DNA from: Pseudomonadota bacterium
Lineage (GTDB): Bacteria; Bdellovibrionota_C; UBA2361; OMIW01
Direction: 5' to 3'
Length of the DNA stretch: 6,498 nt
Assembly: GCA_900299205.1 (NCBI GenBank)
Contig: OMIW01000003.1
Location: 1-6,498, forward strand
Shown here in pieces: positions 1 through 6,498 of this stretch (positions within the stretch are counted from its first letter, which is position 1; each line of letters opens with the position of its first letter). The position numbers and the translations under genes are program-made. Under the pieces are notes generated by a model. The model saw only the letters and a list, made by a program, of their open reading frames with translations. It did not search any database and was not told the origin of the DNA.

Positions 1-114
1 CCGATGTGAGATTTGTGGTCAAGGCGCGTGGGCGGTGAGGGTTAGCAAACCGGATGACTTAAGAGCACTCAAAAGGGGATATGATACTCACTGTTCTAAA
101 CTTTGGATGTGCTC
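1..114. other. Left-edge region, no assignable gene
   Basis: This stretch precedes the first clear gene. Two + strand frames could carry the 3' end of an upstream gene. One ends at TGA 36-38 and would give the tail DVRFVVKARGR. The other stays open from base 2 to TAA 119-121, a Cys-rich 39-residue tail that would overlap the next start codon by 7 bases. Neither is long enough to identify, and the upstream gene could also lie on the other strand. A TATGAT at 80-85 resembles a -10 box, but no good -35 box sits 16-18 bases upstream. Confidence 0.3.
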
Positions 115-1284
115 ATGCTAAAAATCCCTATTCGAAAGTCCCGACAAAAAATCGTGGCAGCACTCCTGGTTGTGATAGCTATCGTAATACTCCTAGCCGT
201 GGGTATTGAACCGCAACAAGATTCGGGCCATCTTGGGCTGAAGGTGTCCGGTGATTTTCTTCCTTATTGGGCCTCGGTTCGTTTATTGCTCTCGGGACAA
301 AATCCGTATGATACTCAAGCACTATCCGCAATCATACTGCACACAGCTGGGCCGGGTGGCGCATTCATGAGGGTATATACACCACCCGCGCTCGCTGGTC
401 TCCTTATTCCCTTCGGTCTTCTCCCTTTCAATATCGCACTCCTCGCGTGGACAATAGCCAGTGTGGCGCTCTTCCTCGTGGGACTTCATCTTGTATATCA
501 GACTATCCAACCCCCTCATGACCATCGCACATTAGTGATTAAGTTTGCCTTTATACTCTCGTTTTACCCGACTTTTCTCGCAATAAAATTAGGTCAGATC
601 ATACCCTTGCTTTTCTGTTGTATCGCCTTTTTTTTCGCCAATCAGGCAAAATTAGACGATCGCAGGAAGGGATTTTTATCTGGGGTTGCCCTCGCGGTGT
701 GCACGGTAAAGCCTCACTTGTTCCTTCCGTTCCTCGTCGGTGTCTTTTTGTGGACCCTCAGAGCCGGGATGTGGCGCCTGGCGAGAGGCTTTTTTGTCGG
801 TGTGGCATTCCTGTGGTCATTCCCCGTGTGCTTCAATCCGCGAGTTTACGGGCTCTATCTGAATTCTGATTTATCAAACTCCCTTAATTGGCGCACTCCC
901 TCGGTTGGTTTTTGGCTTGCCGAATTGTGCGGTGGGTGGGCATACCTCATGTTTGTACCGTTGCTCTTGGGCTGTGGGTATGCTCTCTTGACAGGTCTGG
1001 TTGCACCCATGGATCAGGGAGCACCCCGTTTCGAGGTTCCCTGCCTGATGCCGTTGAGCCTTGCATGTGCTCCGTATCTATGGATGTATGATTTTGTTCT
1101 GCTTATTCCCGCTATTGTTTTAATGCTGCACCGAGGAGAAAATCTGTCGCGGTTTATTATTTTCGGATCGAATACCGCGTTGTGGCTCGGTCCCCGAGAA
1201 ATGGAGTATTCATTCTGGTACCCCGTCTTAATGACGGCACTGGCACTGTCAGTCTGTCGGGAGCGTTCGGCATCCCCTCCTTGA
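115..1284 (+). CDS. GT87 (DUF2029)-like polytopic membrane glycosyltransferase
   Basis: Predicted 389-residue integral membrane protein, probably a GT-C fold glycosyltransferase that moves a sugar (often mannose) from a polyprenyl-phosphate donor on the outer face of the inner membrane. A short basic N-terminus precedes the first membrane helix (about 13-31). The next loop carries GDFLPYW (Asp47 is the candidate catalytic acid of GT-C enzymes) and GQNPYD (61-66), followed by YTPP (88-91). Further hydrophobic segments lie near 92-128, 140-175, 186-214, 222-240, 264-295, 309-338 and 365-381. LGQIIPLL (159-166), TVKPH (197-201) and PYLWMYD (320-326) match the family pattern of GQ..LL, KP and a late W.YD motif. 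The length is normal for the family. I chose ATG 115; in-frame TTG 103 and GTG 109 are alternatives, and none has a Shine-Dalgarno sequence. Family assignment is by remembered motifs; the substrate is unknown. Confidence 0.8.
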   Translation: MLKIPIRKSRQKIVAALLVVIAIVILLAVGIEPQQDSGHLGLKVSGDFLPYWASVRLLLSGQNPYDTQALSAIILHTAGPGGAFMRVYTPPALAGLLIPFGLLPFNIALLAWTIASVALFLVGLHLVYQTIQPPHDHRTLVIKFAFILSFYPTFLAIKLGQIIPLLFCCIAFFFANQAKLDDRRKGFLSGVALAVCTVKPHLFLPFLVGVFLWTLRAGMWRLARGFFVGVAFLWSFPVCFNPRVYGLYLNSDLSNSLNWRTPSVGFWLAELCGGWAYLMFVPLLLGCGYALLTGLVAPMDQGAPRFEVPCLMPLSLACAPYLWMYDFVLLIPAIVLMLHRGENLSRFIIFGSNTALWLGPREMEYSFWYPVLMTALALSVCRERSASPP

Positions 1285-1383
1285 GATTTTCCCCGGCATC
1301 GCCTACTGTGTTTCGTCTTTCCGTGACCTTCTGCCGTGATGCTATCCGGTGCTGATTCACGGGCCCCGAACCGTCGTAGTTGT
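1285..1383. other. Intergenic, left half; no gene seen
   Basis: This follows the stop of the glycosyltransferase gene. There is no obvious intrinsic terminator. CCGTGA (1334-1339) can pair with TCACGG (1357-1362) across a 17-base loop, and another CCGTGA lies at 1321-1326, but these pairings are weak. Reading frames across the stretch on either strand look like chance ORFs without recognisable protein features. Confidence 0.5.
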
Positions 1384-1504
1384 TCCTGAAAATCCCTCCG
1401 TGGGTTTTTCAGGACGGCTCCAAGCGGATGAAGCCGCCGTAAGCGCGATTTCATCCGCGTCGTCCAAACGCCTGTCGGCGTTTGCCGGATCATCCGTGAT
1501 CCGG
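1384..1504. other. Array of four consecutive hairpins upstream of gltX
   Basis: Four inverted repeats sit nearly end to end in 121 bases. Hairpin 1 pairs 1384-1396 with 1402-1414 (13 positions, one T-T mismatch, loop TCCGT). Hairpin 2 pairs GCGGATGAA (1424-1432) with TTCATCCGC (1450-1458), with a possible 3-bp upper stem around loop CGTAA. Hairpin 3 pairs AAACGCC (1466-1472) with GGCGTTT (1477-1483), loop TGTC. Hairpin 4 pairs CCGGATCA (1485-1492) with TGATCCGG (1497-1504), loop TCCG. No T-run follows any stem, so this is not a standard intrinsic terminator. It could be a structured 3' UTR of the glycosyltransferase mRNA, a gltX leader (hairpin 4 ends 76 bases before the gltX ATG), a small RNA, or a REP-like palindromic repeat element. 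The pairings are read directly from the sequence; the role is unknown and the strand undetermined. Confidence 0.75.
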
Positions 1505-1580
1505 AGTGCCCCCTGAGATAGTAGCCCTATTCCTCATGGCGCACTAAGTAACCGTTCCCCGACCACTTTTGGCCGTTCTT

Positions 1581-3065
1581 ATGAAACCAGTTCGCACCCG
1601 TTTTGCCCCTAGTCCCACCGGTAAGCTGCACATTGGGACGGCGCGTACCGCCCTCTTCGCCTACCTTCTTGCTCGTCATTACGGGGGTACCTTTATTTTG
1701 CGGATCGAGGATACCGATCAGGCTCGCCGTGTTCCGGGGGCGGTCCGTCAGATTATCGAATCGCTCTCGCGGTTTGGGATTGAGATCGACGAGGGGCCAT
1801 CGATAGACGAGCTGCGCCAGGTGGGGGAGTACTGGGAAGGTGCTCCGGCACTGGGGGGCACCAAGGGCCCATACACCCAGAGCCTCCGTGCGGCGCGGTA
1901 CCGCGAGGTGGCTGAGCAGCTCGTGGCGATGGGAGTTGCCTATCGGTGTGATTGCACCGCCGAAATGCTCGAGCGGGAGCGAAACGAGCAGATGGCGCGA
2001 CGCGAGGTGCCTGGCTACTCGGGATACTGCCGCGATCGAAACGTCTCTGCTGATGTTCCGCATGTCATCAGGGTACGAATACCTGCGGGGAAATGTGACC
2101 TTGTCCTGAATGATGCCGTTCGAGGGCGAATTACTTGGGACGATCTCTCTCTGCGCGATACCGTGATAATGAAGTCGGATGGCATGTCGTTATATCACCT
2201 CGCCGTCGTCGTCGACGATCACGATATGGAGATCTCCCACGTTATCCGCGGAGAAGAGTGGATCCCCACGACGCCGATCCATCTCCTTCTCTATCGCGCG
2301 CTCGGATGGGAGCCGCCGGTATTTGCGCACGTTGCCCAGGTGCTCGGTACCGACGGTAAGAAACTCTCCAAACGGCACGGTGCTGCGGCGCTCGAGCAGT
2401 TCTTCGAAGCAGGCTATCTCCCCGAAGCCTTATTAAATTACGTCGCGCTGGTTGGTTGGTCGCCGGGTAAGGGCGAGGAGCAGGAGATATTTTCCAAGCA
2501 GGAGTTAGCAGAGCGATTCTCGCTCGACGGCTTGAGCGCATCGGGAGGGGTTTTCGACGATCAAAAGCTCGAATGGATGAACGGGGTGTATCTGCGAAGC
2601 CTTGCGAATGATGATTTCCTCCAAAGGGTGCGCTGCTTCTTCCCTGAGGGTGCTTTCGAGCGTTGCGAGGAAGAGCTGAAAAGTATTGCGGGGCTCGTGA
2701 AGGAGCGCATTAAGCTGCTTCCCGAAGTTCCCGAAATGGTTGAATTCCTGTACCGAGACGATCTCGTTCCTGATTATGCCGCAGCGCTCAAGAAGGGCAT
2801 CACCGGCCCGATAGCCGTTGCCTTGCTAACCGATGCGCTTGAAGCGCTTGACGGTGCGACGTCAATAACGCACGAATATTTGGAGCAGGCATTCCGCGGT
2901 ATCGCAGAGAGGCACGGACTCAAGGTGGGCCCGGCCTTTACGGTGTTCAGAATCTCGGTTCTGTGCAAGGCGATTACTCCCCCGCTTTTCGAGTCGATGG
3001 TTGCGCTCGGAAGGGATCGGGTGATGGCGCGGTTGCGCTCGGCGCGCGACTGGTACGGGCAGTAG
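1581..3065 (+). CDS. gltX: Glutamyl-tRNA synthetase (class I, GluRS)
   Basis: Complete 494-residue cytoplasmic enzyme that charges tRNA-Glu with glutamate using ATP. The Rossmann catalytic domain starts with RFAPSPTGKLHIGT (7-20), which contains the HIGH-type motif HIGT, followed by LRIEDTD. The KMSKS-type motif is KKLSKRHG (260-267). WIPTTPIHLLLYRALGW between them is family-typical. A zinc-site-like pattern is present: Cys123, Cys125 and Cys150, but Asp152 stands where E. coli GluRS has His. The C-terminal part is the helical anticodon-binding domain. The protein is about 20 residues longer than E. coli GluRS, largely because of an extra segment (about 74-95) between DEGP and GPYTQS. I prefer ATG 1581, which puts the conserved start VRTRFAPSP four residues in; an in-frame TTG lies at 1569. 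There is no Shine-Dalgarno sequence. The 5' gap holds the hairpin array. Whether the enzyme also misacylates tRNA-Gln cannot be told by eye. Confidence 0.97.
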   Translation: MKPVRTRFAPSPTGKLHIGTARTALFAYLLARHYGGTFILRIEDTDQARRVPGAVRQIIESLSRFGIEIDEGPSIDELRQVGEYWEGAPALGGTKGPYTQSLRAARYREVAEQLVAMGVAYRCDCTAEMLERERNEQMARREVPGYSGYCRDRNVSADVPHVIRVRIPAGKCDLVLNDAVRGRITWDDLSLRDTVIMKSDGMSLYHLAVVVDDHDMEISHVIRGEEWIPTTPIHLLLYRALGWEPPVFAHVAQVLGTDGKKLSKRHGAAALEQFFEAGYLPEALLNYVALVGWSPGKGEEQEIFSKQELAERFSLDGLSASGGVFDDQKLEWMNGVYLRSLANDDFLQRVRCFFPEGAFERCEEELKSIAGLVKERIKLLPEVPEMVEFLYRDDLVPDYAAALKKGITGPIAVALLTDALEALDGATSITHEYLEQAFRGIAERHGLKVGPAFTVFRISVLCKAITPPLFESMVALGRDRVMARLRSARDWYGQ

Positions 3066-4624: not shown

Positions 4625-6498
4625 ATGGGTGGGCAACAAACGAAGGCGCAACGGGGGCGATCTCCGGGCCAGCGGCGTGAGAGAGAGAACCCCGCAATCA
4701 AAGGCGTGGGTGGCGCTCGGCGCATTCCATCCACCAAAGCCCCCATATCGGCGGAAGCTGACGCCGGTCGAGGTACTCACCGAGCCGGCCAGCCCAAAAG
4801 GAACGCTCCTGCGACCTCGTCACCTCCACCCCCTCCGCCCCGTACCCCCCATCGGGCAATACCCGGTCGGGGACGTCGGGCACGGGATGGCGGTATCGCA
4901 CCATGTTCCGTCGGTGCGAGCACCGAGGTAACCGCAGAACCGGTCGGTCACTCAGCAGAGGCGCTCGCCGCTCTCGTCGAGCTCCAAAAGGCGATCCACG
5001 GGCTGCGTCAGGTCGTGGACGAACAGGGGCAAAACCATCCCCCTGCCGGCAACCTTTCCCCTGCTCAGACCAAGCCGCGGCGACGCCGCGTTGAAAATCC
5101 CAGGGAATCTGAAGGTGTTGGTGCCCTCGTGGTGACCGGTGTGTCGATAGAGAAGTTACAGGAGGTGGTGTGCCTAGGCTCGAGCGGAGTCCCCGATGGG
5201 ATATTGGCAGCCCCCGAACCTGCCCCAAACTTATCTTCCGCGGTGCACCCCCTCCTCCAATCTTCGGAAACCCTCTGCCGGCGGGTGGTCCGTTCATTAT
5301 CAATCAGCGAGGTCGAGCGCCTTATCTTTTATCTGACCTTCTACCGAGATGACCCTGCGTACGCAACGCAGCTCCTTGGCGTGCTCCTCCCCGCATTTAA
5401 TGCGGGTTCGGTATCCTCTAGCTCGACAATCGACTCCGCGACTCCCGCTGAGTACCGCATCGGCCTCGTCGTATTCGAGTGTCGTGAAACCGACCGCGAT
5501 GTCGTGGTGGAGAGGTTGCGGCATGCTATCGCTGATGCGGGGGGAGAAGTCACGGCCGTGCCCTGCGGTGGGCAACCCCATGCAGCGCCATGCTCCCATC
5601 AGCCCCGAACCAGACGCCCCCGTTCGCACTACCTTTTCTTCACCACCGACCCCCTCGAGCTTGCTGAGTGCCGCGCAGTTCTGCTTGACGACAGAGGCTG
5701 GAACCTCATCAAGCAGGGCGACATTCGCCCCTACTTAACTGCACCTGGCCGACGGGCCCTCGCGCGTCTCATCCAGCTTCGCACCTGGCTCCACCGACAC
5801 TTCACCCCAGTAGAGCGAGAGCAATTTTTGCTGATAGGTAGCTCAACCCTCTTCATGTATGGAATCCGTCTTCCGGGGGATATCGACCTGTACATCCACA
5901 ATCCAACCGCCGACCCCGAGTTTGTGGCAAAGGTAGAGCGGAGAATCGCGGCGGCCCCGACAGACTTGTTCGGGGGAGTGGACGTGATTATGCGGGGGTA
6001 TGGGGGATGGGTTGAGGCTGGTGGGGAGTATGCTGAAGCGCTGAGCGCCAACTACCTCGTTGACTGGCCCACGGCGTTCGGCGCAGGAACGATGGATGCC
6101 GTGATCGCCACCCCTCCATTCCACGAATTTTTCATCGGCCTCAAATGTGTGTCATTGGTTGGTGATATTGTTCGTCGGGTGCGCCGCATACGACCGGCCG
6201 CGTATGCCGATCTGATAGCGATGAGCCGACAACCCCGCTTCAGCACCATCATGGAGCTCGTTGTCCCGCGATTGACCGAATACATCTTTGAGGAAAAACA
6301 GTGGGTACGCCTCGATGAGAGCAGTGAGCTCCGCTTTTTCGGTACAATCCAAAATTATCTAAAAAGTCGCTATGGACTCTCAATAAAAGGGGAGGAGATC
6401 GCAGAACTCCTGAAAAACGGGGTAGTAGTGGAGCCGTTCCGCTATCTGGTGGGCGTTGTGGCTCGAGAAGGGATGGTGGGTAATGAGGAAGTTGAAAA
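4625..6498 (+). CDS. Partial multidomain protein with nucleotidyltransferase-fold core
   Basis: One uninterrupted frame of 624 codons plus two bases runs from ATG 4625 off the right edge, so the C-terminus is missing. ATG 4625 is the first possible start after an in-frame TGA (4619-4621), and the next in-frame ATG is codon 411. Residues 1-165 are rich in Arg and Pro (six prolines at 67-72, four arginines at 152-155) and look disordered. Residues 205-260 look helical. Residues 277-370 look like beta-alpha-beta units (IGLVVFE..., then HYLFFTTD...), perhaps a ferredoxin-like fold. Residues 400-425 read FLLIGSSTLFMYGIRLPGDIDLYI, matching the nucleotidyltransferase G[GS]...DxD signature with Asp419 and Asp421. 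GGVDVIM supplies a third acid (Asp453). Lys507 and YADL (527-530) resemble the downstream helix of AbiEii-type minimal nucleotidyltransferases. Substrate and role are unknown; it could act on a nucleic acid, a protein or a small molecule. The fold call is by motif; the full architecture is not one I recognise. Confidence 0.8.
   Translation, partial: MGGQQTKAQRGRSPGQRRERENPAIKGVGGARRIPSTKAPISAEADAGRGTHRAGQPKRNAPATSSPPPPPPRTPHRAIPGRGRRARDGGIAPCSVGASTEVTAEPVGHSAEALAALVELQKAIHGLRQVVDEQGQNHPPAGNLSPAQTKPRRRRVENPRESEGVGALVVTGVSIEKLQEVVCLGSSGVPDGILAAPEPAPNLSSAVHPLLQSSETLCRRVVRSLSISEVERLIFYLTFYRDDPAYATQLLGVLLPAFNAGSVSSSSTIDSATPAEYRIGLVVFECRETDRDVVVERLRHAIADAGGEVTAVPCGGQPHAAPCSHQPRTRRPRSHYLFFTTDPLELAECRAVLLDDRGWNLIKQGDIRPYLTAPGRRALARLIQLRTWLHRHFTPVEREQFLLIGSSTLFMYGIRLPGDIDLYIHNPTADPEFVAKVERRIAAAPTDLFGGVDVIMRGYGGWVEAGGEYAEALSANYLVDWPTAFGAGTMDAVIATPPFHEFFIGLKCVSLVGDIVRRVRRIRPAAYADLIAMSRQPRFSTIMELVVPRLTEYIFEEKQWVRLDESSELRFFGTIQNYLKSRYGLSIKGEEIAELLKNGVVVEPFRYLVGVVAREGMVGNEEVE

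Follow-up and report, generated by a model that had tools for sequence, protein, structure and literature searches.

Settling behind genes is a pattern known for the REPs of E. coli, and one that is not well explained. The closest described systems are the REP/BIME sequences of E. coli and Pseudomonas, which are GTAG-tagged palindromes, the ERIC (127 bp), Correia/NEMIS (about 107–155 bp) and RUP (107 bp) MITEs, and YPAL or RU-2, a Yersinia palindromic sequence of 168 bp. Published genes for RAYT, a Y1 tyrosine transposase, are flanked by inverted REPs (PMC2817692). We analysed a window (the whole stretch of DNA under study, 6,498 nucleotides) in which positions 1377–1546 probably belong to a dispersed family of non-autonomous miniature elements built of hairpins (MITE/BIME-like), of which they are one copy, transcribed as a structured 3' UTR. 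We favour this MITE/BIME-like reading because the genome holds ~20 dispersed copies, related hairpins stand in inverted orientation at the two ends, hairpin 1 shows covariation among copies, and the copies are associated with the 3' ends and stop codons of genes. The features of the element and its neighbourhood are as follows.

103–1284, plus strand: upstream gene, GT87 glycosyltransferase, ending 92 bases ahead of the element.
1377–1546, plus strand: whole repeat element, TAGTTG...CACTA, with ~89% identity to the family consensus; no copy in the genome is better preserved and, at 144.8 bits, it is the top of 31 covariance model matches.
1377–1383, plus strand: left end, TAGTTGT (family consensus TAGTTGG); the equivalent TAG is the exact stop codon of the upstream gene in five other copies.
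1384–1414, plus strand: hairpin 1, TCCTGAAAATCCC/GGGTTTTTCAGGA, loop TCCGT; stem 1384–1396/1402–1414, 13 positions with one T-T mismatch.
1424–1458, plus strand: hairpin 2, GCGGATGAAGCCGC/GCGATTTCATCCGC; stem 1424–1437/1445–1458, 10 bp, a C-A mismatch and 3 bp.
1466–1483, plus strand: hairpin 3, AAACGCC/GGCGTTT, loop TGTC; stem 1466–1472/1477–1483, 7 bp, to which RNA folding adds one pair.
1485–1504, plus strand: hairpin 4, CCGGATCA/TGATCCGG, loop TCCG; stem 1485–1492/1497–1504, 8 bp.
1505–1545, plus strand: hairpin 5, related to hairpin 1, in inverted orientation.
1581–3065, plus strand: downstream gene gltX, glutamyl-tRNA synthetase, with its start near 1581, 34 bases downstream of the element.

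The sequence-only reading had described four hairpins between two genes at 1384–1504, and all four are real, with the loops TCCGT, TGTC and TCCG. Its stem lengths of 13 (one mismatch), 7 and 8 bp were also correct; the 9 bp given for hairpin 2 fell short of the 10 bp, mismatch and 3 bp found here. The count missed a fifth, more degraded hairpin at 1505–1545 (fold z −3.7) adjoining the other four, and the complete unit spans ~1377–1546, ~170 bases with five hairpins. The suggestion that this density exceeds chance was borne out by RNA folding, which gave the stretch 1370–1520 an energy of −68.6 kcal/mol against −45.9±3.9 for shuffled sequences (z −5.9; 0/200 shuffles as low); the opposite strand of this stretch gave a z of −5.4. 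As had been proposed, no coding gene accounts for the hairpins: the unit, under about 300 bp, carries no supported ORF over 1377–1546 and is without coding capacity. At the far end of the window, positions 4625–6496 hold a long ORF of 624 aa, open at the window end and without a Pfam match.

The genome of origin, a 2.45-Mb draft in 206 contigs that is 90% complete, contained ~14 clearly related stretches on other contigs when searched with the intergenic DNA. A hand-made consensus brought the count on other contigs to ~20 copies, full or partial, with E values down to 1e-34. A covariance model built from eight copies recovered eight strong copies (92–145 bits) from the same genome, along with about fifteen that were weaker or incomplete. 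Element boundaries and gene calls were taken from simple alignments and ORF scans. The copies start with TAGTTGG..CCTGAAAAA and finish with ..TTTTTCAGGGGGCGCTA, and their consensus reads TAGTTGG-[TCCTGAAAAACC..GGTTTTTCAGGA]-CGGCTCCAA-[GCGCATGAAATCGC..GCGATTTCATGCGC]-GTCGCCC-[AAACGCC TGTC GGCGTTT]-G-[CCGGACCA..TGGTCCGG]-[AGTGCCCCCTGAAATAG..CTATTTTTCAGGGGGCGCT]A. Deletion derivatives such as L048 and L095 lack hairpin 2, and in these two copies hairpin 1 runs directly into hairpins 4 and 5; hairpin 5 is intact in L048 (AGTGCCTCCTGAAAAAG...TTTTTTCAGGAGGCGCT), where it forms a long, nearly perfect stem. All copies are old and diverged, with 68–89% identity, and the best-supported view is that the element is now mostly inactive. 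Within hairpin 5 of the copy at L006, ~90 extra bases (L006:1616–1706) contain further small inverted repeats and have no second copy in the genome. A long form of the element, suggested by the insertion within hairpin 5 of L006/L043 and by a look-alike stretch in L056, was rejected since neither stretch has a second copy.

Three origins had been offered for the hairpins from the letters of the window: a REP-like mobile palindrome, a leader controlling gltX and a structured RNA. The first, for which a genome search for copies had been named as the check, fits the many dispersed copies. A cis-acting leader of gltX would agree with the 34 bases that separate the element from the gltX start, but a homologous element was found near this gene in 0/29 relatives, and all other copies adjoin other genes, following unrelated ones. 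This dispersal contradicts the leader reading, which we consider extremely improbable. The element is not a gltX-specific regulator, and its other copies are better described as lying 3' to the upstream gene. The third origin, a structured RNA, stands in part: hairpin 1 covaries across copies, but no Rfam family matched, either at the gathering score or with E values as high as 1 admitted, and the structure occupies no conserved fixed locus.

Beyond the genome of origin, the DNA consensus gave only one weak match among 28 genomes of the order, and the repeat was not found in most of them. The covariance model gave several matches in G004, a genome from a different family of the order. These represent a shorter homologous family, TAGTTGATCCTGAAAAAGTC..GACTTTTTCAGGAGTGCTGCAAGC, in which hairpin 1 is conserved and homology extends beyond the hairpin (AAATAGTTGATCCTGAAAAAGTCATCCTGACTTTTTCAGGAGTGCTGCAAGCTTCATCCGCGCC). 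Single low-scoring matches in G019, G033 and G040 looked on inspection like chance. A Nostoc pattern match lay in apparent coding sequence, where the remainder of the element was missing, and was likewise taken as chance; when two core patterns were compared with viral contigs, neither had an exact match. At locus L118 (G004:C87), the repeat copy is followed immediately on its 3' side by another inverted repeat, a perfect one, CTATTTAGTTGATGC/GCATCAACTAAATAG. Its arms include TAGTTGATGC, which resembles the left end of the element, and it may be a related minimal palindrome.

Across 20 copies of hairpin 1 from both genomes, 85% of cells were paired. Double changes affected 8/13 pairs and amounted to 20 cells, against 10.2±3.0 in shuffles, none of which (0/500) reached 20. 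Sliding the hairpin 1 partners destroyed this covariation signal, every slid version being much worse. The whole four-hairpin unit showed a weaker excess of compensatory changes in the eight copies from the genome of origin. In the eight best copies, ~22% of stem cells were unpaired, which indicates that many copies are decaying. The compensatory changes can come from selection on the hairpin or from template switching between its arms, and the data fit both. A CsrA/RsmA sponge on the minus strand, with ACGGA in loops 1 and 4, was rejected on inspection because these loops are not conserved between copies.

Of the copies from the genome of origin, 18/21 point the same way as their 5' neighbouring gene. 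The more informative figure comes from same-direction gene pairs, because convergent sites cannot show orientation; here 11/12 copies were co-oriented and one was not, a small count. The first TAG of the element is the exact in-frame stop codon at L054, L056, L058, L061 and L099, where the genes that end in this way are a DnaJ-domain gene, an EVE gene, a DsbA-like gene, an H+-pyrophosphatase gene and gyrB. In about four more copies (L048, L065, L070 and L095), a TAG or TAA stop coincides with the left end or adjoins it; the genes ahead of these copies are mraZ, the L065 gene, and genes for a sigma factor and a ribonucleotide reductase. The upstream genes are genuine, comprising DNA gyrase B, MraZ, H+-pyrophosphatase (hppA), DsbA-like, EVE, DnaJ-domain, ribonucleotide reductase and sigma factor genes. 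Contact with a stop codon was found for 6–7 of 14–15 left ends, against a 9.5% background (p about 2e-4 to 1e-3) drawn from non-coding TAs in these loci, which partly include the copies themselves. At L057, it is the right end that touches the stop of a convergent gene. Several G004 copies likewise lie behind gene stops, L127 after re-orienting, and follow genes that we take, from reading their sequence, to be glmU-like, ilvC-like and trehalose genes; the exceptions L123 and L126 lie in front of genes.

We propose that copies spread in the past by transposition, with targets that contained TA. Where the target was a TA-type stop codon, insertion would have been tolerated; it would be harmless because TA and the first G of the element restore a TAG stop. 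Once inserted, the element would form part of the upstream gene's transcript, either as a hairpin-rich 3' UTR or as an intercistronic spacer, and its transcription with that gene may favour retention of one orientation over the other. The observed bias in orientation points to one of two explanations: as a 3' UTR the element may be tolerated or useful one way round only, or its insertion may favour one strand. A stronger version holds that the element captures stop codons, inserting at the stop's TA in fixed orientation, supplying its own TAG and adding a five-hairpin 3' UTR that tunes the upstream gene; we put this forward very tentatively and think it more probably wrong.

Co-orientation with the upstream gene, contact with the stop codon and a covarying stem would also be expected of a selected 3' RNA module, serving as a transcript end, mRNA stabiliser or translation brake and duplicated for its usefulness to the host. 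Ribosome stalling is reported for E. coli REPs that lie within 15 nt of a stop, in work quoted in a passage of PMC12306157, and the effect of ERIC on mRNA depends on orientation (PMC2229807). However, no intrinsic terminator was called in 1200–1700 and no U-run lies behind any stem; the carrier genes are functionally unrelated and number only ~20; nearly all relatives are without the repeat; and many copies are truncated or have broken stems. We therefore regard a selected module as unlikely.

The ends of the MITE/BIME-like element bear on how it was mobilised. On the opposite strand the right end reads TAGCGCCCCCTGAAAAA and has TAG and TGAAAAA in common with the left end, TAGTTGGTCCTGAAAAA, while the middle of these 17-nt ends differs; from this match we conclude that the outer hairpins are related and inverted. 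Both ends of the element are bounded by TAG/CTA. The base before TAG varies among copies (A, T, C or G) and the TAG itself is common. A possible TA target duplication is present in the window copy and L057 only, with no clear longer duplication.

These ends would suit an IS630/mariner-type MITE that inserts at TA, like Correia, RUP or ERIC, which we consider possible while leaning against it. Its ends TAG...CTA and the possible TA duplication point this way, as do a size and internal hairpins like those of Correia, ERIC and RUP (PMC2229807). Yet TAG and TGAAAAA are all that the terminal inverted repeats have in common, and the 90%-complete draft contains no match to an IS630 (DDE_3, PF13358) transposase, although old copies may outlive their transposase.

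Mobilisation as a REP/BIME by a RAYT appears somewhat more doubtful. Hairpins 1 and 5 would then be a REP and an inverted REP, with the TAG head cut on single-stranded DNA. Consistent with this, the inverted hairpins are paired and have a TAG head, copies lie within 15 nt of stop codons, as a passage of PMC12306157 reports for many E. coli REPs, and the genome encodes a RAYT-like Y1 transposase of 315 aa (L122:1390–2337, equal to G000 contig C131:5764–6711). This gene is the only Y1 match in the genome of origin, but its 53 bits to NCBIfam REP_Tyr_transpos are below the cut-off (80). It is not flanked by the element, the nearest copy being ~3.5 kb away, and Y1 genes are present in 25/27 genomes of the order, of which nearly all lack the repeat; many of these Y1 matches fall in ORFs about 320 aa long. 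The gene was rejected as a partner because no copies of the repeat flank it and because almost every genome of the order has Y1 genes, and no transposase could be tied to the element. The element also has no strict GTAG head, and its ~20 copies, rather than hundreds, are 170-base units with five different hairpins.

We filed the element as a small palindromic interspersed repeat that forms a new family, outside the named RAYT-REP and IS630-MITE families, because the defining features tested (a flanked transposase and GTAG head for the former, a transposase present for the latter) were not found. The sequence family appears undescribed; the kind of element is well known. Its recognition explains an otherwise odd intergenic region and adds a repeat family for an uncultured lineage, and an element end that serves as a stop codon in fixed orientation offers a testable example of palindromic elements settling behind genes as 3' RNA structures.

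With REP/BIME sequences the element shares dispersed palindromes outside genes, an unpaired head that contains TAG ahead of the stem, hairpins paired in inverted orientation and a frequent place just 3' of stop codons. It differs from them in having five different hairpins per 170-base unit, ~20 copies, the head TAGTTGG rather than GTAG and no flanked RAYT found. The ERIC, Correia/NEMIS and RUP MITEs resemble it in their 100–170 bp size, non-coding nature, TA termini and strong secondary structure, and are transcribed together with neighbouring genes in known cases. The element is distinguished from them by short imperfect terminal inverted repeats and by a series of separate hairpins in place of one long stem, and it is not known to have any sequence in common with these families. 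YPAL is without TA ends and has target duplications of 3–26 bp (PMC2229807), whereas in its nearly equal length, its palindromic nature and a composition that is not A+T-rich it matches the element described here.
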